Below are positions 9,443 through 26,385 of a stretch of DNA of 42,232 nucleotides, one piece after another (the first letter of the stretch is position 1; every line of letters starts with the position of its first letter). Under the pieces are notes generated by a model, which was given only the letters and a program-made list of their open reading frames with translations, ran no database searches and had not been told where the DNA came from. The DNA is from Terriglobia bacterium. Its GTDB lineage: Bacteria; Acidobacteriota; Terriglobia; JAJPHL01. A program made the translations under genes and the position numbers. The stretch spans positions 1 to 42,232 of the forward strand of contig JAJPHL010000003.1 in assembly GCA_021325275.1 (NCBI GenBank), given 5' to 3'.

Positions 9443-9655
9443 CTACTCTTCCACACTGGCGCCGGATTGCCGCGCCATTTGATTCACCATCCAACGGTCC
9501 AGCGTCGTCTTCTTGAACTTCCAGCGGTTGCCCAGCTTGAAAGCGGGAATCCGTTTGTTCGACACGTAGGTATAAAGCGTGTCGGCGGAGATCCCCAAAT
9601 ACTGCGATGCTTGCCGAACATTCATCACTTCTCGCGAATCAAGCAGCATGGGCAT
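9443..9655 (-). CDS. small helix-turn-helix (excisionase-type) DNA-binding protein
   Basis: A 70-residue protein made almost entirely of a MerR/Xis-like winged helix: VRQASQYLGISADTLYTYVSNKRIPAFKLGNRWKFKKTTLDRWM (about residues 13-56). This matches the HTH_17 / excisionase-type domain, which usually binds DNA as a small regulator. It is the first gene of the pil block, 48 bp before pilM on the same strand, so it may regulate the pilus operon or itself. No integrase is nearby, so a role as phage excisionase is unlikely. GAGG is 9-10 bases before the chosen ATG; a second ATG two codons in is possible. Confidence 0.85.
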   Translation of the reverse strand: MPMLLDSREVMNVRQASQYLGISADTLYTYVSNKRIPAFKLGNRWKFKKTTLDRWMVNQMARQSGASVEE

Positions 9656-10117: not shown

Positions 10118-11527
10118 CTAGACAACGCTGCGATAGACACGTCCGATTCCAAGGCGACGCGGCGGGCCCGCCGACCAAACGTCGGCGGTGTACGTTGCTT
10201 GCTCGCTAATAGACCGACGCGCGTTCATGACGACCATCGACTGACTAGGCCGATCGGCGCCGACATTGCGACGCGGATGCTCCGGTCCCGGCACAGGCCG
10301 CGTGGATTCGCGGAGCTTCCCGCTCGGCGCTGACGGCACCGTCTCGATCACTGCGGTATCCGTAAGCGGCGGATACACCACCTCACGAATCGGGCAGGTG
10401 CTCAGTTGGGATGCTTCCCCGCGACAGGTAACGTCTTTCGCACACCGCTCGGCATACCTAATAGCATCGATGCGTGCCGGCAGTTTTTGTCCTTGGTTGC
10501 AGAGGAGTTGCGAACGAGTCTTCAGGGCGGGCAAGTAGCCAGTCTCAACGTTTTCGTTCAAAATGAAGAGCGCCGTGTCCACGTGATTCAGCCACGCTTC
10601 CCCGGCGGCGAGAAGATTGAAGAACGCTCGCGGGGGCTCCCTGGTCAAGCCGATTGCCGCACGAATGTCCTCGACGGCAGCGCGGTAATCCTTACAATCG
10701 ATATCGATTCGAGCCGATGCGCTGAACGCGCGCATGCGGCTTTCGGTGCTGCCTTGATGCGTGGCCTGTCTGCATTTGTACTTCGCAATCTCAGCGCCAT
10801 ATGCCTCGTACTGCGACTGGCAGACCAATCCGGGAGCGTCCTCGGCGCCCTTTTGCTCAGCGGCCACGAAGGCATCGTAAGCTCGCCGAGATTCATGAAT
10901 CTTCTCTAAATCAGCACCAATGTCCATCAAAACAGCAGCCGACCCGGGCTCGGCATCTTCTTCCTCGGTAGCGAGAACTTCGGTCGCTACCGCAAAGTGA
11001 TTAATCGCGGATGCGCGTGCGATCTCGCGTTCCGCAAAACGACTCTCTCGGTCGGCCCGCAGAACATCGCGGACATCACATTCACCGAGCAGGGCGTAGG
11101 TCGTTCCTACAGCTTCATCCGTCTCCAGCAAAGCAGCACCATACTTGCGAATGTCTCCGCAGCGACCGAGATGAAACAGCACGCCCATTTCGGTCAAGAT
11201 CGTGCCGGTGTCTTGCCATTCCCCGGAGTCCAAGAGCTGCTTGAATAGATCGTGGGCGATGGAAGCATGAGCAGTCCGATCCTCGCCTTCGGCCCGGTCG
11301 GCCAGCGCGGCTTCGCAGTAGGCGTACATCATCCTGACATAAGTGCGCTCTTCGCGGGTCAAGGCCGGCGGATTCTCGGCGTGCTCCAAAGCGTCTGCGG
11401 CCTGATTCGCGCATTCGGAGAAATGGCCTTCCTTGTAGGCCGTGAAAACGTTGATGCTCAGGTCTGCGGAACTGACCTGAGCTAAGAGTACCAAGGCAAG
11501 CAGCAAAGCAAGCAATCTCGGGTTCAT
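10118..11527 (-). CDS. exported Cys-rich, possibly TPR-like protein of unknown function
   Basis: I do not recognise the family. From the ATG at 11527 the protein has 469 residues and a clear signal peptide (MNPRLLALLLALVLLAQVSSA). The mature part is mostly helical-looking, with repeats of the kind seen in TPR/SEL1 proteins (for example YRAAVEDIRAAIGL and a stretch ending WLNHVDTALFILNENVETGYLPAL). It holds about 12 cysteines, unusual for a cytosolic helical repeat protein but consistent with disulfides outside the membrane. The last about 80 residues are Pro/Arg/Ser-rich and look disordered. A 12-residue upstream extension to 11563 is unlikely because AAGG precedes the 11527 ATG at good spacing. 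It is divergent from the MerR-DnaA fusion gene and shares its intergenic region. Confidence 0.7.
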   Translation of the reverse strand: MNPRLLALLLALVLLAQVSSADLSINVFTAYKEGHFSECANQAADALEHAENPPALTREERTYVRMMYAYCEAALADRAEGEDRTAHASIAHDLFKQLLDSGEWQDTGTILTEMGVLFHLGRCGDIRKYGAALLETDEAVGTTYALLGECDVRDVLRADRESRFAEREIARASAINHFAVATEVLATEEEDAEPGSAAVLMDIGADLEKIHESRRAYDAFVAAEQKGAEDAPGLVCQSQYEAYGAEIAKYKCRQATHQGSTESRMRAFSASARIDIDCKDYRAAVEDIRAAIGLTREPPRAFFNLLAAGEAWLNHVDTALFILNENVETGYLPALKTRSQLLCNQGQKLPARIDAIRYAERCAKDVTCRGEASQLSTCPIREVVYPPLTDTAVIETVPSAPSGKLRESTRPVPGPEHPRRNVGADRPSQSMVVMNARRSISEQATYTADVWSAGPPRRLGIGRVYRSVV

Positions 11528-11652
11528 TTGGTTCCACCTTCCTGTCGAATAATGCACTACCACCTGTCCAATGTGGAACTACCGCTGTTACCAAATTCGA
11601 CACCGAGCACCCGCTATGGGTTCCAGAAATATATGTAATGGCAACAACGACA

Positions 11653-11672
11653 GTTGCAATATATGTTGCAAC
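11653..11672. promoter_or_regulatory. 20-bp dyad 1 (GTTGCAA-N6-TTGCAAC)
   Basis: This is a perfect 7-bp inverted repeat with a 6-bp spacer, in the intergenic region between the exported protein gene and the divergent MerR-DnaA gene. A partial direct copy of the flank (AATATATG followed by GCAACA) lies just upstream at about 11630-11645. The size fits a dimeric regulator site. Confidence 0.55.
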
Positions 11673-11701: not shown

Positions 11702-11721
11702 GTACCATCGTCCAATGGTAC
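11702..11721. promoter_or_regulatory. 20-bp dyad 2 (GTACCAT-N6-ATGGTAC)
   Basis: This is a perfect 7-bp inverted repeat with a 6-bp spacer, the same geometry as the dyad at 11653, with centres 49 bp apart. It overlaps a second smaller palindrome, GTACG-TC-CGTAC (11718-11729). The half-site sequence differs from dyad 1, so the two may bind different proteins. Confidence 0.5.
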
Positions 11722-11816: not shown

Positions 11817-12842
11817 ATGGCCAGCGAACCGCAAGCTCTGAACACCGACGACGCTTTTCCGCTACAGCGGGAATACACTCTTCGTCCCAATGAAGTGCTA
11901 CGGCGCGTGCCTGGTGCTCAACGACAGCATCTGCTCCGCTGGCGAGATCAAGGCCGAATCACCGCGAAAGATTCATCCATCGGCAAGAAAAAAGTGTCGC
12001 TATACGCCGAGTCGGAAATTCCGACGATGCGTCGGCTCGCCGGTGCCATTAAGGGTCGGTTTCCCGCCACTCACGAGGAGTTTAAAACGTGCGATGCCAA
12101 TCGGCGCGCGTTTGAAGCTGTGTGCCGCATCGCTCGAGGACGGAATAGCGCAGCGAATCCCGTTTGCATTTTTGGTGACGCCGGTGTCGGAAAGACCCAT
12201 CTACTGATGGCCGTGGAGCCGTTTTGTTGGGAATGGGATCCCTCTCGTGCGGTACGGTACGTCTCGTGCCGCAATGCATCGGTGCCCGCTTCCGGGAGTT
12301 TCGTCTCCCCAGCAGCGGCGAAAGTTCTCAGCAACTGCGACATCCTGCTCATCGACGATTGGGACGAGTTGACAGCCCAGCCCAGCCTGAAATGGCATGT
12401 AGAAACACTCATCGAATCGCGGGTGCGCAGGCATCTGCACACAATCGTCGCTTGTCGTCACGCTCCGAAGGCGGAGTGGGTTGGAAACCGTCTCGCGTCG
12501 TTATTCCGTGGCGGGTTCACAGTGGAGGTCGGCGCGCCCGATTTCGAAACGCGCTGCCGGATCATCCAGCGCCGTGTTGAGCAGGAGCGAGAGGCGGCGA
12601 AGGAGTGGAATCCGGGCCACGCGGGACCCTGGCTAACCGACGAAGTAGTGCGATTTGTAGCAGAAAAAATTTCTTGCAATATTCGCGAACTTGGTGGGTT
12701 TGTCAACCGCCTGTGTTCGCTTCCTCCGCCGGTTCTCTTGCCGCAAGCCCTGGCAGAATGGCACTATTGGGATCACGCAGAATCTTCTGGAGATCACTCG
12801 GAATCTCGCGCGTTCTCGTCTAGTGCTGCGACTGCTTCATAA
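11817..12842 (+). CDS. MerR-like HTH fused to DnaA-type AAA+ ATPase
   Basis: The function is unknown; a DNA-bound ATPase or switch is the inference. Residues about 19-78 resemble a MerR winged helix (YTLRPNEVLRRV, HLLRWRDQGRI, SLYAESEIPTMRRL). Residues about 89-300 are a DnaA-family AAA+ module: F.TCDANRRAF, Walker A GDAGVGKT (120-127), Walker B ILLIDDWDEL (176-185), sensor 1 around TIVACRHAP, the DnaA signature PDFETRCRIIQRR (241-253) and sensor 2 NIRELGGFVNRL (288-299). It ends about 40 residues later, so DnaA domain IV, which reads DnaA boxes, is absent. The arginine-finger position of the DnaA SRF motif is Leu here (ASLFRGG). The 341 residues are intact. No strong Shine-Dalgarno precedes the ATG. 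It is not the replication initiator; IstB/DnaC-type helpers are the main alternative. Confidence 0.8.
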   Translation: MASEPQALNTDDAFPLQREYTLRPNEVLRRVPGAQRQHLLRWRDQGRITAKDSSIGKKKVSLYAESEIPTMRRLAGAIKGRFPATHEEFKTCDANRRAFEAVCRIARGRNSAANPVCIFGDAGVGKTHLLMAVEPFCWEWDPSRAVRYVSCRNASVPASGSFVSPAAAKVLSNCDILLIDDWDELTAQPSLKWHVETLIESRVRRHLHTIVACRHAPKAEWVGNRLASLFRGGFTVEVGAPDFETRCRIIQRRVEQEREAAKEWNPGHAGPWLTDEVVRFVAEKISCNIRELGGFVNRLCSLPPPVLLPQALAEWHYWDHAESSGDHSESRAFSSSAATAS

Positions 12843-12940: not shown

Positions 12941-13273
12941 TCACCCTAGAGAAACGATCAGCTTTTTTCCAACCGCATCCGCGTAACGGACCAACGTCTC
13001 GATCGTCGGGTTCACGCGTTGTCCCGTTTCCAGCTTCGACAACGCGGATCGGTCCATGCCTGTTCTTTCCGTCAGATCCGACAGGCTCAAACCCATTTTT
13101 TCGCGAGCCGCCTTCAATTGCACGACTAGGCTTTGAAATTGACCGAAAGCCGTCATTCTCTGTTCATGCCGCTCCAGAAGTTCCGGCAGTTCCGCGTTGA
13201 TCTTCTCTCGAATGCCTCTGTACTTTGCGGCTTCCGCACGGGTCAGGCGCCGGCGACGAATCACTCGCTTCAT
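12941..13273 (-). CDS. XRE-family HTH antitoxin
   Basis: A 110-residue protein with a Cro/C1-type helix-turn-helix in its C-terminal half (LVVQLKAAREKMGLSLSDLTERTGMDRSALSKLETGQRVNPTIETLVRYADAVGKKL, about 49-106). The N-terminal half is a charged helix that probably binds the partner toxin. Its ATG overlaps the stop of the upstream toxin-like gene (ATGA at 13270-13273), so the two form a coupled toxin-first pair, as in higBA-like modules. It probably represses the pair's promoter near 13560. The pairing rests on arrangement and size. Confidence 0.85.
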   Translation of the reverse strand: MKRVIRRRRLTRAEAAKYRGIREKINAELPELLERHEQRMTAFGQFQSLVVQLKAAREKMGLSLSDLTERTGMDRSALSKLETGQRVNPTIETLVRYADAVGKKLIVSLG

Positions 13274-13536
13274 TGTTTTTTCCTCCGTGGGACTTCGTAT
13301 GCCGTGATCGGATAGACAGTGTCCGAATCGACTTCCTCGTAGACAACCATCAGATGGCGTCTGCCTGCCGTGAATCCGAAGATCACCGGCCGCCCGGAAG
13401 TCCGGCTCACATCGTCATCGATGACATTTTGAAACACAGATTCCACTTCCTCCGGTGTGACGCCGTGCGAGGCGCAATGGCGGATGTTTCCATCGGGATC
13501 GTCATCGGCGTCCCAGAGAATGGCGCTGTATGCCAC
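13270..13536 (-). CDS. BrnT/DUF4258-like toxin of a toxin-antitoxin pair
   Basis: An 88-residue protein with the small RelE-fold-like pattern of BrnT-type toxins: N-terminal HGVTPEEVESVFQN helix, then FGFTAGRRHLMVVYEEVDSDTVYPITAYEVPRR, the central-strand GR.L.VVY motif and a C-terminal basic strand. BrnT relatives cleave RNA; activity here is not proven. The usual cognate antitoxin (BrnA, ribbon-helix-helix) is replaced by an XRE protein. The start is GTG, with AAAGG about 9 bases upstream and a TATAAT -10 about 30 bp upstream. Confidence in a toxin-like role is moderate. Confidence 0.7.
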   Translation of the reverse strand: MAYSAILWDADDDPDGNIRHCASHGVTPEEVESVFQNVIDDDVSRTSGRPVIFGFTAGRRHLMVVYEEVDSDTVYPITAYEVPRRKKQ

Positions 13537-20335: not shown

Positions 20336-23300
20336 ATGTCTAAGATCTCATCCATCACCTGCGCGATATTGTGCGCTCTCATACTCATCACTGTTTTTGC
20401 CACGCCGGTGCACGCCTGCGGAGTGGCGCTGTCAATGGCGATGCCGGCCACGTTTCGTTTGTCGACAACCTTGAGCGTATCGAGCGCCTCGGGTACGTAC
20501 GGCGGAACCGCCAGTTTGTCGGCGACGCTTTCGAACGGATGCACGCCGATCGCCGGCCGCACGATTGCGTTTACGGTGAACGGTACGAGCGTGGGATCTG
20601 CGACCACCGATGTCAGCGGCACGGCGACCGTTGCCAGCGCGAGTCTGTCGGGCGTCTCCGTGGGCGCATATGGAACGGGCGCGCGGGCCAGTTTTGCGGG
20701 CGATTCCAGCTACACCAGCAGCAGCGGATCGTCCACGCTGACGGTTAACGCGCGTGCGTTGACGGTCACCGCAACCGGCATCAATAAGGTTTACGACGGC
20801 GGAACATCGGCCACCGTGATTCTCTCCGACAATCGCGTTTCGGGCGACGTCTTCACCGACAGCTACACCGGCGCTAGCTTCGCCGGCAAAGCGGCCGGCA
20901 GCGGCAAGACCATTTCGGTCAGCGGCATCTCGATTTCCGGCGCCGCCGCGGCCAACTATACGGTCAACACCACCGCGACGGCCACGGCCAACATCACGCA
21001 GCGCGCACTGACGGTCTCGGCCATGGGCGTCAACAAAGGTTTTGACGGAACCACCGCCGCCACGGTAACTCTCTCCGACAATCGCGTGTCGGGCGATGTC
21101 TTCACGGACAGCTACACGAGCGCCAGTTTCTCCGACGCGAGCACGGGCGTGGGAAAAACCGTTACGGTAACAGGCATTTCGATTTCCGGCGCCGATGCCG
21201 CCAACTACACGGCCAACTCGAGCGCCAGCACCACGGCGAATATCACGGGAAAAACTCTCACCGTTACGGCCACCGGCGTCAATAAGGTTTACGATGGCGG
21301 CACTTCGGCCACCGTTACGCTCGCCGACAATCGCACGATCGGCGACAACATCACAGTCAGCTATGCCAGCGCGACGTTTGCGGCGAAGAGCGTTGGCAAC
21401 GGCGTGGCGGTTTCGGTGAGCGGCATCTCCGTCACGGGTCCGGACGCGGCCAGCTACATCAGTCTCAACACCACGGCGACCACCGCCGCCAACATCACCG
21501 CGAAAACCCTGACCGTCTCCGCAAGCGGCATCAATAAGGTGTTCGATGGCGGTACGACCGCGACGGTGACGCTTTCCGACAATCGCGTTTCCGGTGACGT
21601 CTTCACCGACAGCTACACCGCCGCGAGTTTCTCGGACAGCTCTGTGGGAGTTGGCAAGATCGTATCGGTGAGCGGAATTTCCATCACCGGCACCGACGCC
21701 GCGAACTACTCGGCGAACAGCACCACGACAACCACGGCGAGCATCACCGGCAAGACCCTCACGGTCACGGCCAGCGGCGTCAATAAGGTTTACGATGGCG
21801 GCACTTCGGCCACCGTTACCCTCTCCGACAATCGCACGACCGGCGACAACATCACGGTGAGCTACACGACGGCCGCGTTTGCGGCGAAGAACGCTGGCAA
21901 CAGCGTCGCGGTTTCGGTGAGCGGAATCTCCGTCACGGGTCCCGACGCCGCCAGCTACACCAGTTTCAACACCACGGCCAGCGCCACCGCCAACATCACG
22001 GCGAAGGCGCTGGCGGTTTCAGCCACCGGCGTCAACAAGATATACGACGGCGCCGCAACGGCGACGGTGACGCTCTCCGACAATCGCGTTGCTGGCGACG
22101 TTTTCACCGCCAGCTACTCGAGCGCGAGCTTCTCCGACAAGAACGTGGCGGCCGGCAAGACCATATCGGTCAGCGGAATCTCGATCTCCGGCACGGACGC
22201 CGCGAACTATACGCCGAACACCACGGCCGGCGCCACGGCCAACATCACGGCGAAACCGTTGATGATTTCGGCCACGGGCGTCAACAAGGTGTACGACGGC
22301 GGCGCGTCGGCGACGGTGACTCTCTCCGACAATCGCATTTCCGGCGACGTTTTCTCGAGCAGCTACTCGAGCGCGAGTTTCGCCGATAAAACGGTAGCCG
22401 CCGGCAAGACGGTTTCGGTGAGCGGCATCGCGATTTCCGGTGCGGACGCCGCGAACTATACGCCGAACACCACGGCGAGCGCCACGGCCAACATCACCGG
22501 CAAACCGCTGGCGATTTCGGCCACGGGCATCAACAAAGTGTACGACGGCGGCACGTCGGCGACGGTGACGCTCTCCGACAACCGCGTTTCCGGCGATGTT
22601 TTCTCGAGCAGCTATTCGAGCGCGAGTTTCGCCGACAAGACGGTCGCGGTTGGCAAGGCGGTTTCGGTGAGCGGAATCTCGATTTCCGGCGCGGACGCCG
22701 CGAACTACACGTTCAACACGACGGCCGGTGCGACCGCCAACGTCACGGTGTTGGCTCTGACCGTTTCCGCCACCGGCATCAACAAAGTATTCGATGGCGG
22801 CACGTCGGCCACGGTAACCTTGTCCGACAACCGCGTATCCGGCGACGTTTTCACCGATAGCTACGCCAGCGCGAGCTTCTCCGACCGCATTGTGGGAGTC
22901 GGCAAAACGGTTTCGGTGAGCGGCATTTCCATTTCCGGAGCCGACGCCGCGAACTACACGTTCAACACCACCGCAACCACCGTCGCGAGCATTACTGGAA
23001 AGCCGCTGACGATCACGGCGACCGGCGTCAACAAGGTTTACGACGGAAACACTTCGGCCACCGTTGTTCTCTCCGATAATCGCGTCTCGGGCGACGTGTT
23101 CACGGACAGTTATACGACCGCCAGCTTCGTCGACAAAAATGCCGGCTCCGGAAAAACGGTTTCGGTAAGCGGCATCTCCATCTCCGGAGCGGACGCCGCG
23201 AACTACACGTTCAACACCACCGCGACCGCCACGGCCAACGTAACGGCAAGACCACTGACCATCACCGCCACCGGCGTCGACAAGGTCTACAACCGCACGA

Positions 23301-25831
23301 CGCAGGCGACGGTCACATTCTCTGACAATCGCCTCGAAGGCGACGTCTTCACCGATCACGGCAACGGATTCTTTGGCGATGCGAACGTAGGATCGGCCAA
23401 GCCCGTGACCGTGGCGAACATCACCATCGCCGGCGCCGACGCAGGAAATTACTCGTACAACACGACGGCCAGAACCACGGCCAACATTACTCCAGCGACG
23501 CCGGCGTTGTCGGTCACCGGATTCACGGGAACTTACGACGGAGCGTCGCATGGCGCTTCCTGTGTGGCGCACGGCGTGCCCGGTCCTACGGATCGTCCTT
23601 CACCCATTGCAGAGAGAGCGCTTCGTCCGCTGAACAACAACGGCGGCCCGGTCAACGGAACGTGCACTTTCACGTACACGCCCGGCGGCGCGACGATTCC
23701 GGTCGGCGCCGGCGCTTATGCGGTCAGCGTCTTGTTCACCAGCAGCGATTCGAATTACACGAGTGCCGGCGGATCTACGACGATCACGATCAGCCAGGCG
23801 TCGCTGACCGTGACTGCCAGCGCGCAAACGATCACCTACGGCGTAGCGCCTACCTACACCGCAACGTATTCCGGATTTGTCGGTGAGGACTCGCCGGCGT
23901 CGGTGAGCGGCACCGCCGCTTTCTCGACGAACGCAACGCTGACTAACGGCAAGCCGAACGCCGGCACGTGGACCATTACTCCGGCGGTCGGAAGCTTGAG
24001 CGCCGCGAACTACAGTATTGCGACGTTCGTTCCCGGCACGTTGACGGTCGGCAAGGCCGCGTTGACGGTCACGGCGAACAGCGCCGGTAAGGCTTACGGC
24101 GCACCGTTGCCGGCGCTCAGCGCGATGGTCAGCGGCTACGTGAACGGCGATACGTCCAGCGTGGTTTCCGGCACACCTGTTGTAGCGACCATCGCGACCG
24201 CGAACTCGCCGGCCGGCAATTACGCGATCACCGTTAGTGGATCGTTGTCGGCGGCGAATTATACGTTTACGTACGCCCCGGGAACATTGACGATCTCCGC
24301 GGGCGTGCTCACCGTGATCACCGACGGCGGCACACGAATCTACGGAGCGCAGAACTCGCTCAGCTATTCCATCAGCGGTTTCGTAAACGGCGACACGGCG
24401 GCCGTGGTTTCGGGCGCGCCCGTGCTCTCGACGACGGCATCGCAGAATTCCTCTCCCGGAACCTACGCAGTCACGGCGACGATCGGCACGCTCGCGACGC
24501 CCAGTTACACGTTTGCATTCCAGTTTGGCTCGTTGGTCGTGACGCCGGCCACCACGGATCTCGGTTTGAGCGCGCCCACCACGACGGTCGGCGCGGGACA
24601 GAGCTTCACGCTCAACTTCCTGCTCGCGCCCGTCTCGGGCGGCGCCGCGCCGAGCGGAGCGGTGATCTATTCGGTAGATGGCGGTGCTTCGCAGAGTGTT
24701 TCGCTGGCCAACGGCGCGGCCACGGTTACGCTGTCGCCGCTCGCGGTGGGAGCGCATCACCTGGTCTCGAACTACAGCGGCGACGTGAACTACGCGGCGA
24801 CCACGCCGCATTCGGTCACACTGACCGTGACGGCGTTGTCGACGCAACTGACGGTCAGCGCGACGCCCGGAATGACCGCGCCCCAAGGTCAGCCGATCAC
24901 ATTGACGTTTTCGCTGACGGGAACGCCCGCCCCGTCGGGAACCGTTGCGTATTCGCTGGATGGCGGCGCGCCGCAAATGGCTTCGGTTTCCTCCGGAACG
25001 GCGGTGGCCTCGCTGAGCGGATTGGCGATGGGACAGCATGTCCTGAGCTACAGCTACAGCGGCGATCGCAACTATCCCTCGATTTCGCGCACCGCGACGA
25101 TCGTGGTAACCACGCCGCTGCCGGTTCTGAACACGGTGGTGAACGCCGCCGACTTCGGCTCCAAGATTTCGGCGGGCGGCTTGGCCACGATCTTCGGTGC
25201 GGGATTGGCCACCGATACGCTGTCCGCGACAGCGGTGCCGTTGCCGATCACGTTGCACGGCACGCAAGTGCTGGTGAACGGCGCGACCGCGCCGATCACT
25301 TTCGTTTCGACCGAGCAGATCAATTTTCAAGTACCGATCGGAACGCTGGTGGGAACGCCGGTGCAAGTTGCGGTGGTGTTGAACGGCGTATCCAGCCTGC
25401 CCACGATGGTGACGTTCTTCACCAACGCGCCCGCAGTGTTCGACTACTATCGCACGCCTGATTCCTTCGAACCGATTGTGGTTCACGCCGACAACTCGCT
25501 GGTGACTCCCAGCGCTCCGGCAACCGCCGGCGAGATCCTGACGATCTACGCCACCGGCGCCGGCGCGTTGAACAACCCGCCGCTGGACGGCCAACCCGCG
25601 CCCTCATCGCCGGCCTCGACGACCAAGACCCTGCCGATTGTCATGGTCGGCGGAGTGGCGGCGACCGTGCAGTTCTCCGGATTGACGCCGGAATCGGTCG
25701 GCCTCTTGCAGATCAACATTCAACTTCCCGCAACGCTGCCCGCGGGAAGCGGAACGCCGCCGACATTGCCGCTCGGGATCAACCTCGGTGGATCGTCGAG
25801 CACGCCCGTGAAGTTGTGGATGGTCCAGTAA
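20336..25831 (+). CDS. giant secreted YDG/MBG/Ig-repeat adhesin-like protein
   Basis: Probably a large surface or extracellular adhesin. It has 1831 residues: signal peptide (about 1-28, ending VHACG), one Ig-like domain (about 44-138) and 11 YDG-type repeats of about 83 residues (141-1054). Each YDG repeat begins L[TA][VI][TS]A.G[VI]NK.[YF]DG and ends AANYT.NTTA. A divergent linker with a short Arg/Pro-rich break (about 1079-1105) comes next. Three MBG-like domains (about 1155-1404), two Ig-like domains (about 1405-1590) and a C-terminal Solibacter-type domain (about 1600-1831) complete it. There is no LPXTG or autotransporter barrel, and no TPS partner is nearby, so export beyond the signal peptide is unclear. 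No strong Shine-Dalgarno precedes the ATG. The ORF stays open over 5.5 kb despite the repeats. Confidence 0.9.
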   Translation: MSKISSITCAILCALILITVFATPVHACGVALSMAMPATFRLSTTLSVSSASGTYGGTASLSATLSNGCTPIAGRTIAFTVNGTSVGSATTDVSGTATVASASLSGVSVGAYGTGARASFAGDSSYTSSSGSSTLTVNARALTVTATGINKVYDGGTSATVILSDNRVSGDVFTDSYTGASFAGKAAGSGKTISVSGISISGAAAANYTVNTTATATANITQRALTVSAMGVNKGFDGTTAATVTLSDNRVSGDVFTDSYTSASFSDASTGVGKTVTVTGISISGADAANYTANSSASTTANITGKTLTVTATGVNKVYDGGTSATVTLADNRTIGDNITVSYASATFAAKSVGNGVAVSVSGISVTGPDAASYISLNTTATTAANITAKTLTVSASGINKVFDGGTTATVTLSDNRVSGDVFTDSYTAASFSDSSVGVGKIVSVSGISITGTDAANYSANSTTTTTASITGKTLTVTASGVNKVYDGGTSATVTLSDNRTTGDNITVSYTTAAFAAKNAGNSVAVSVSGISVTGPDAASYTSFNTTASATANITAKALAVSATGVNKIYDGAATATVTLSDNRVAGDVFTASYSSASFSDKNVAAGKTISVSGISISGTDAANYTPNTTAGATANITAKPLMISATGVNKVYDGGASATVTLSDNRISGDVFSSSYSSASFADKTVAAGKTVSVSGIAISGADAANYTPNTTASATANITGKPLAISATGINKVYDGGTSATVTLSDNRVSGDVFSSSYSSASFADKTVAVGKAVSVSGISISGADAANYTFNTTAGATANVTVLALTVSATGINKVFDGGTSATVTLSDNRVSGDVFTDSYASASFSDRIVGVGKTVSVSGISISGADAANYTFNTTATTVASITGKPLTITATGVNKVYDGNTSATVVLSDNRVSGDVFTDSYTTASFVDKNAGSGKTVSVSGISISGADAANYTFNTTATATANVTARPLTITATGVDKVYNRTTQATVTFSDNRLEGDVFTDHGNGFFGDANVGSAKPVTVANITIAGADAGNYSYNTTARTTANITPATPALSVTGFTGTYDGASHGASCVAHGVPGPTDRPSPIAERALRPLNNNGGPVNGTCTFTYTPGGATIPVGAGAYAVSVLFTSSDSNYTSAGGSTTITISQASLTVTASAQTITYGVAPTYTATYSGFVGEDSPASVSGTAAFSTNATLTNGKPNAGTWTITPAVGSLSAANYSIATFVPGTLTVGKAALTVTANSAGKAYGAPLPALSAMVSGYVNGDTSSVVSGTPVVATIATANSPAGNYAITVSGSLSAANYTFTYAPGTLTISAGVLTVITDGGTRIYGAQNSLSYSISGFVNGDTAAVVSGAPVLSTTASQNSSPGTYAVTATIGTLATPSYTFAFQFGSLVVTPATTDLGLSAPTTTVGAGQSFTLNFLLAPVSGGAAPSGAVIYSVDGGASQSVSLANGAATVTLSPLAVGAHHLVSNYSGDVNYAATTPHSVTLTVTALSTQLTVSATPGMTAPQGQPITLTFSLTGTPAPSGTVAYSLDGGAPQMASVSSGTAVASLSGLAMGQHVLSYSYSGDRNYPSISRTATIVVTTPLPVLNTVVNAADFGSKISAGGLATIFGAGLATDTLSATAVPLPITLHGTQVLVNGATAPITFVSTEQINFQVPIGTLVGTPVQVAVVLNGVSSLPTMVTFFTNAPAVFDYYRTPDSFEPIVVHADNSLVTPSAPATAGEILTIYATGAGALNNPPLDGQPAPSSPASTTKTLPIVMVGGVAATVQFSGLTPESVGLLQINIQLPATLPAGSGTPPTLPLGINLGGSSSTPVKLWMVQ
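20756..23497 (+). repeat. eleven tandem coding repeats (about 249 bp) in the YDG gene
   Basis: Eleven units of about 249 bp encode YDG domains. Units 1, 2, 4 and 6-10 are of a 'GDVFT/GDVFS' type. Units 3 and 5 are of a 'GDNITVSY...FAAK' type and are nearly identical at DNA level (about 21280 versus 21775). This implies duplication of a two-unit block (2-3 into 4-5). Unit 11 has diverged. The high identity marks this as a site of recombination and of likely assembly error. Confidence 0.9.
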
Positions 25832-25859
25832 GGAGATTCAGCAACGAGCCGCCGTGGAG

Positions 25860-25892
25860 AAAGGGTCAGTCTGAAATTCAGGCTGGCCCTTT
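25860..25892 (+). terminator. intrinsic terminator after the YDG protein gene
   Basis: A 15-bp stem with two G-U wobbles pairs AAAGGGTCAGTCTGA with TCAGGCTGGCCCTTT over a 3-base loop, 28 bp past the stop codon. T-rich stretches (TTTTCC, then TTGTTTTAC) follow. It can also act on the opposite strand. Confidence 0.75.
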
Positions 25893-25915
25893 TCCAATTG
25901 TTTTACTAACTCCGC

Positions 25916-26026
25916 ATGGCAATCAAAACCATTGCGGTGAATGTAGCCCAGAGGCTACAATCACCTCAATTCACTTTTGCGATCTGCTTGTGCGGGCTAC
26001 GGAAACGAATCAAAGGGATGTCATGA
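25916..26026 (+). CDS. possible 36-residue leader ORF overlapping the antidote gene
   Basis: An ORF starts with ATG at 25916 (MAIKTIAVNVAQRL...) and ends with TGA at 26026, where its last bases form an ATGA overlap with the antidote start. It has no visible Shine-Dalgarno and no recognisable family. It occupies the place where a RelE/HigB-type toxin gene would be expected, but is far too short and does not resemble one. It may be a leader peptide or chance. Confidence 0.22.
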   Translation: MAIKTIAVNVAQRLQSPQFTFAICLCGLRKRIKGMS

Positions 26027-26385
26027 GAAAGAACAAGCCGGTCCCCAAAGTCAAGCGGCGCGGGACAGTTCGCCCGTCACGCCGCTGGGATGATTTCATG
26101 CGCGAGGAATTGTCCAATACGGCACGCGCGTGTGCGTACCTCGAGGTAGCCATCAACGAGTTTCAGGAGAGCGGAAGCGTGGAGCATTTTCTTGAGGCGC
26201 TACGTCATCTCGCCCAAGCCGGCGATGGAATGGCAGACATCGCTCGCAAGACGGGTGTGAGCCGGGAGAGCCTTTATCGCACGCTCTCCCGTCACGGCAA
26301 TCCCCAGTTCAAGACGGTGCTCGGCGCCATTGGCGCATTGGGAATGCGCGTTCAAATCTCACCAGCGGAGCGGCGGCCATCGTGA
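26023..26385 (+). CDS. addiction-module antidote protein (HigA-like, HI1420 family)
   Basis: A 120-residue antitoxin-type DNA-binding protein. Residues about 50-110 match the HI1420-type antidote: YLEVAINEFQESGSVEHFLEALRHLAQAGDGMADIARKTGVSRESLYRTLSRHGNPQFKTVLGAIGALGMRVQI. This includes the helix-turn-helix (MADIARKTGVSRESLYRTLS). These genes usually follow a RelE/HigB-type toxin gene, but no toxin ORF lies on either side, so this looks like an orphan. A longer in-frame reading from 25816 would start inside the YDG gene and is not credible. I chose the ATG at 26023, which has AGGG a few bases upstream. Confidence 0.85.
   Translation: MRKNKPVPKVKRRGTVRPSRRWDDFMREELSNTARACAYLEVAINEFQESGSVEHFLEALRHLAQAGDGMADIARKTGVSRESLYRTLSRHGNPQFKTVLGAIGALGMRVQISPAERRPS

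Follow-up and report, generated by a model that had tools for sequence, protein, structure and literature searches.

What does a DnaA-type ATPase do when it is joined to an N-terminal part of another kind and lacks domain IV? Domain III of DnaA usually comes joined to domain IV, or is found as Hda, and the architecture of P0001, a 341-aa protein encoded in a 42,232-nucleotide stretch of DNA from a Terriglobia bacterium (here called the window, located on contig C41 of a 6.86-Mb genome), is unusual. The open reading frame is real: it runs from ATG to TAA at exactly 11817–12842 on the plus strand, the boundaries given by an earlier sequence-only reading of the window, and an in-frame stop immediately precedes the ATG. 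It encodes an 84-aa N-terminal part, a DnaA-clade AAA+ ATPase and a 40-aa tail.

The ATPase core belongs to the DnaA clade

Residues 85–301 (12069–12719, +) form the AAA+ core and lid. Their assignment to the DnaA family, proposed earlier from motifs, holds well beyond chance: Pfam Bac_DnaA recognizes a DnaA-type domain III (4.1e-15, 56.8 bits, cut-off 23), the NCBIfam DnaA model TIGR00362 matches at 4.5e-34 (118.3 bits, short of its whole-protein cut-off of 343.9), and a sequence search finds DnaA chains in the PDB with E-values as low as 2e-15. The NCBIfam Hda model reaches 47.2 bits against a cut-off of 194.8, the NCBIfam IstB model NF038214 23.2 bits against 200, and Pfam IstB_IS21 11.1 bits against 24.1. 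These profiles place the ATPase in the DnaA clade and not with IstB/DnaC.

The structural comparisons agree, with the reservation that the AAA+ model was predicted from an alignment with four DnaA proteins, which favors a DnaA-like result and is the reason why we give the sequence scores more weight. In this model, the AAA+ part is well formed (pLDDT mostly 70–88), its best structural match is DnaA of B. subtilis (8btg_B; VIA-align Z 19.6, rmsd 3.0, 215 aligned residues), and Hda-type entries rank after the DnaA structures (Z 17.1–16.1). A maximum-likelihood tree places P0001 on a very long branch beside the DnaA rows, apart from Hda and DnaC/IstB, with a support of 84/99 for the fork joining it to DnaA that we do not count as firm. 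P0001 is a genuine, divergent paralogue of DnaA that has been pared down to its ATPase domain. It is not the initiator of this genome, since a complete DnaA (L002) is encoded on another contig.

An intact nucleotide pocket and a substituted assembly interface

With DnaA domain III, P0001 shares the AAA+ core, both Walker motifs and the PD.ETR and N-I/V-REL motifs, at only about 26–28% identity to the aligned DnaA proteins. The motifs named in the sequence-only reading are all in place: Walker A GDAGVGKT (residues 120–127; 12174–12197, +), Walker B, previously put at 176–185 and here found as ILLIDD (176–181; 12342–12359, +), PDFETR (241–246) and the sensor 2 sequence NIREL (288–292; 12678–12692, +), in which R290 corresponds to R334 of E. 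coli DnaA. We aligned P0001 with the Hda and DnaC of E. coli and with 36 DnaA-type rows, of which two are very divergent; in this comparison, the equivalents of E. coli DnaA K178, T179, D235, D236, R281 and R334 are retained.

Other residues of the core, overlooked in the earlier reading, are lost. The arginine finger R285 is an arginine in 35 of the 36 DnaA-type rows as well as in E. coli Hda and DnaC, and is L229 in P0001 (12501–12503, +); misalignment is unlikely because the surrounding columns are ungapped. R231, two residues further on, might act as a replacement finger. In the ungapped alignment downstream of Walker B, Q188-P-S190 (12378–12386, +) replaces K243-E-R245 of DnaA, so that K243 becomes Q188 and R245 becomes S190. 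R227 of AID-1 is S172, the sensor-1 aspartate D269 is R214, L290 corresponds to F234, and V156 stands opposite V211 where the alignment has gaps. In E. coli DnaA, R285, K243 and R227 serve ATP-dependent head-to-tail assembly, V211 and R245 bind single-stranded DNA, and D269 functions in ADP release at DARS1 (PMC5742627). Because the pocket is kept while assembly and single-stranded DNA residues are replaced, we infer that P0001 binds ATP without forming DnaA filaments or holding DNA open.

These losses bear on two alternative roles. The sequence-only reading had suggested that P0001 could work at sites of its own as a DnaA-like switch or loader, a proposal weakened by the substitution of R285, R227 and K243 for assembly and of R245 for single-stranded DNA. 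On this view, P0001 would be a second initiator or helicase loader that reaches its own origin through an N-terminal helix-turn-helix, as the intact Walker motifs and sensor 2 of a DnaA-type ATPase and the possible winged-helix topology of the N-terminal part in a low-confidence model would allow. However, the arginine finger, Lys243, AID-1 and the H/B-motif arginine are lost, which argues against an initiator or a loader, and there is no domain I for contact with DnaB. We regard this role as very improbable.

Could P0001 act on DnaA itself? In head-to-tail DnaA assemblies, the contact links bound ATP with R285 of the neighboring molecule (PMC5742627). As the ATP-site residues are kept and those on the finger side are lost, P0001 could be a one-sided cap, Hda-like or dominant-negative, that ends or poisons DnaA filaments and restrains initiation or DnaA-driven transcription. 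In this attractive model, the ATP face of P0001 could accept the arginine finger of a neighboring DnaA, and P0001 would offer none onward. P0001 also resembles Hda/HdaA as a DnaA-clade AAA+ protein that lacks domain IV and has no conserved DnaA-type ISM sequence. Yet Hda has a clamp-binding motif (QLSLPL in E. coli) and an arginine finger, whereas P0001 has neither: on reading residues 1–84, no sequence like the sliding-clamp motif QL(S/D)LPL was seen. Its 84-aa N-terminal part is of another kind, and the Hda model scores 47 bits where the DnaA model scores 118. Moreover, the low identity to DnaA makes a match with the interface of the host DnaA uncertain. Overall, we consider a capping function unlikely.

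The N-terminal part and the C-terminal tail

The sequence-only reading described residues 19–78 as a MerR-like winged helix and took DNA recognition to have apparently moved to the N-terminus. By eye, residues 20–78 do resemble the MerR/HTH_17 pattern (Y-T-L ... H-L-L-R-W-R-D-Q-G-R-I ... L-Y-A-E-S-E-I), but profiles do not bear this out. At E<=10, residues 1–88 match nothing in Pfam or NCBIfam. Of the profiles that we built from 24 MerR and 18 HTH_17 domains of this and related genomes, the MerR profile gives the N-terminal part 0.1 bits, reached by 487 of 1713 scored shuffles (28%), and the HTH_17 profile 1.2 bits, reached by 157 of 1593 (10%). With hhalign, the N-terminal part falls in the expected MerR register, at a score that 24 of 200 shuffles (12%) attain; for the HTH_17 profile, 16 of 200 shuffles reach the score.

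Structure prediction gives a divided answer. A single-sequence model places elements at E18–22, H24–30, H36–45, E48–52, E60–64 and H69–77, and this beta-alpha-alpha-beta-beta-alpha order is that of MerR; its mean pLDDT, however, is 50.8, and searches with the N-terminal part by Foldseek, VIA and PDB sequence returned neither a helix-turn-helix match nor a MerR structure. Residues 28–80 match phrog_5866 at E 0.013, a match that gave no further lead. A winged helix in residues 1–84 (11817–12068, +) is possible on the order of elements in this model. The earlier claim that DNA recognition had moved there depends on the same helix-turn-helix, which the profiles leave unconfirmed, and this also counts against an initiator or loader that would find its origin by this route. 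No DnaA domain I or II was seen in residues 1–84.

The absence of domain IV, stated in the earlier reading, stands. The tail (residues 301–341; 12717–12839, +) carries no trace of it: against residues 297–341 the domain IV profile scores −2.7 bits, which 1149 of 1312 scored shuffles equal or exceed, and we reject the idea that the tail is a domain IV remnant. Nor was domain IV found in the other frames out to 13700.

Relatives and distribution

The same fusion was looked for in genomes and in mobile-element collections. Within its own genome, P0001 matches only DnaA and faint AAA+ proteins, none of them alike in N-terminal part or domain order, and a search at the level of the order likewise gave no relative with either. 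Among 399 genomes of the class, no relative in architecture was found, the best matches being frames of 474–490 aa, all DnaA. In 121 class genomes searched with PF00308, matches other than DnaA were partial and IstB/DnaC-like, mostly of 150–330 aa, and P0001 is the only match listed, other than DnaA of normal strength, that spans almost all of the domain. Across 396 genomes of the phylum, the whole protein best matches frames of 467–706 aa, taken as DnaA by their length alone, and residues 1–89 gave best matches at E 1e-4 to 0.05, none of them a relative; the top one (L009) overlaps other open reading frames in another frame.

No protein with a similar N-terminal part or domain order turned up in plasmid and phage collections, and IMG/VR returned DnaA with domain IV, one DnaC-like and one ClpB-like protein. 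About 85,000 species genomes were scanned coarsely in two ways, with 8-mer patterns and with a spacing pattern (W-R..G plus Walker A) that recovers P0001 itself; neither scan gave a relative, at a coarseness that would miss diverged ones. Of the 45 loci from the spacing pattern, those in frame are DnaA, Hda-like or unrelated; one that looked promising at first (L072) is a DnaA adjoining dnaN and gyrB. Significant matches outside the P0001 gene all fall on the AAA+ core, and titles and abstracts of the open-access literature mention no fusion of a helix-turn-helix with a DnaA AAA+ domain. That no named family has this order of domains, as the sequence-only reading supposed, thus holds in that none was found, but solely because no N-terminal relative was found among the sequences searched. 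Since the searches gave no relative in N-terminal part or domain order, no conservation stands behind any functional claim for P0001.

The closest genome-search match to the ATPase (L005; contig C34 of genome G070, 1120–2577, −) is a second, divergent full-length DnaA in a member of the class; contig C23 of this genome gives a further DnaA match, contamination stands at 8%, and L005 may itself be contamination.

Composition and the possibility of a decaying gene

The third-position GC content (GC3) of P0001 is 0.59, and P0001, its upstream neighbor and a downstream gene pair together span 0.59–0.65, compared with 0.70–0.82 in the flanking long genes. This composition suggests a small acquired stretch, and P0001 itself was probably acquired, given its low GC3 and poor codon fit; its in-frame codon score is no better than that of the other frames. 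The poor codon fit would equally suit a decaying gene. Is P0001, then, an orphan that is decaying or has arisen recently and does little or nothing? Such an origin would agree with the codon score, with the very long branch, with the replacement of several residues that elsewhere hardly vary and with the lack of a whole-protein relative in every collection searched. On the other hand, 341 codons stay open with Walker A and B, sensor 2 and the DnaA-type motifs intact, and random decay would not spare them. We think it doubtful that P0001 is such an orphan.

Candidate operators and a possible regulatory role

The spacer of 253 bp that separates P0001 from its divergent upstream neighbor contains two perfect dyads, each with 7-bp arms and a 6-bp spacer: GTTGCAATATATGTTGCAAC at 11653–11672 and GTACCATCGTCCAATGGTAC at 11702–11721. 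The pattern of the first occurs once in the genome when up to one mismatch is allowed. At least two such dyads occur in 205 of 20,000 simulated regions (1%) and in 50 of 840 overlapping tiles of the window (6%); because of this latter frequency, we treat them as operator candidates only, and they may be there by chance. No DnaA-box cluster lies near P0001 and no plasmid or phage replication gene was seen in its immediate surroundings, both of which speak against an origin of its own.

The most likely role of P0001, as far as its sequence indicates, is that of an ATP-binding regulator, and a DnaA-derived regulator seems more likely than a second replication starter. We tentatively favor, as something close to an even call, a fast-evolving DnaA paralogue in which the ATPase domain and a new N-terminal part make up an ATP-gated regulator bound to DNA or to DnaA. 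Its intact pocket (Walker A, Walker B and sensor 2) would bind ATP, which might be hydrolyzed poorly or only with a partner. With domains I, II and IV gone, together with the arginine finger, the H/B-motif arginine, Lys243, AID-1 and the sensor-1 aspartate, P0001 would build no DnaA-type filaments and open no origin. The target would be supplied by the N-terminal part, which may be a winged helix; the nearest candidate target is the divergent intergenic region with its two dyads directly upstream. P0001 would regulate transcription or DnaA. A point against a regulator is that residues 1–84 resemble no DNA-binding domain to a significant degree.

In a bolder version, a DNA-binding domain newly gained at the N-terminus would direct a DnaA ATPase to other targets; one-sided and without a finger, this ATP switch would cap filaments of DnaA or control promoters at sites of its own, and would represent a previously undescribed class of regulator. 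We hold this to be improbable, and a new class finds no support in a single relative-less sequence whose N-terminal domain is unconfirmed. If true, a natural DnaA ATPase without DNA reading and arginine finger, and with another N-terminal part, would mean that the ATPase machinery of DnaA can be reused as a switch in settings other than replication, which is beyond what one such sequence can yet carry.

Other ATPases share parts of this layout. The helicase-loader and transposase-helper ATPases IstB, DnaC and DnaI are small, belong to a related AAA+ clade and have an N-terminal extension, but the IstB profile stays below its cut-off, the lid of P0001 is DnaA-type with sensor 2, and no transposase adjoins it or was seen in its immediate neighborhood, for which reason we set aside a role as transposition helper. 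MuB, which combines a helix-turn-helix with an AAA+ domain, and TnsC, both target-selection ATPases of transposition, also place an N-terminal extension before the AAA+ domain; they differ in that no sequence relation to P0001 was seen and no MuA- or TnsB-type partner was noticed nearby. Several viral contigs of IMG/VR (L036–L044) encode DnaA-like proteins with domain IV intact, and in L039 and L041–L043 fewer residues precede the ATPase than domains I and II would take up.

Other genes of the window

The upstream neighbor is a 481-aa protein (10118–11563, −) with a signal-peptide-like start and no Pfam match. Downstream of P0001, an HTH_3 antitoxin-like gene and a BrnT-like gene overlap by a few bases (12941–13536, −); the BrnT-like match is weak (25.7 bits, Pfam cut-off 34.5), and the two are a probable toxin–antitoxin pair in which HTH_3 replaces the usual BrnA. 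The window has no tRNA. Upstream of a pilM gene lies a 70-aa stand-alone protein of the HTH_17/excisionase type (9443–9655, −; 55.9 bits), and further class genomes contain closely similar domains (L118, L119 and L121). Farther downstream, a secreted-looking protein of 1831 aa (20336–25831, +) carries eleven YDG repeats and MBG_2 and Big_3_5 domains, and a 189-aa protein (25816–26385, +) combines about 95 extra N-terminal residues with a C-terminal HI1420-type addiction-module antidote domain (60.8 bits).
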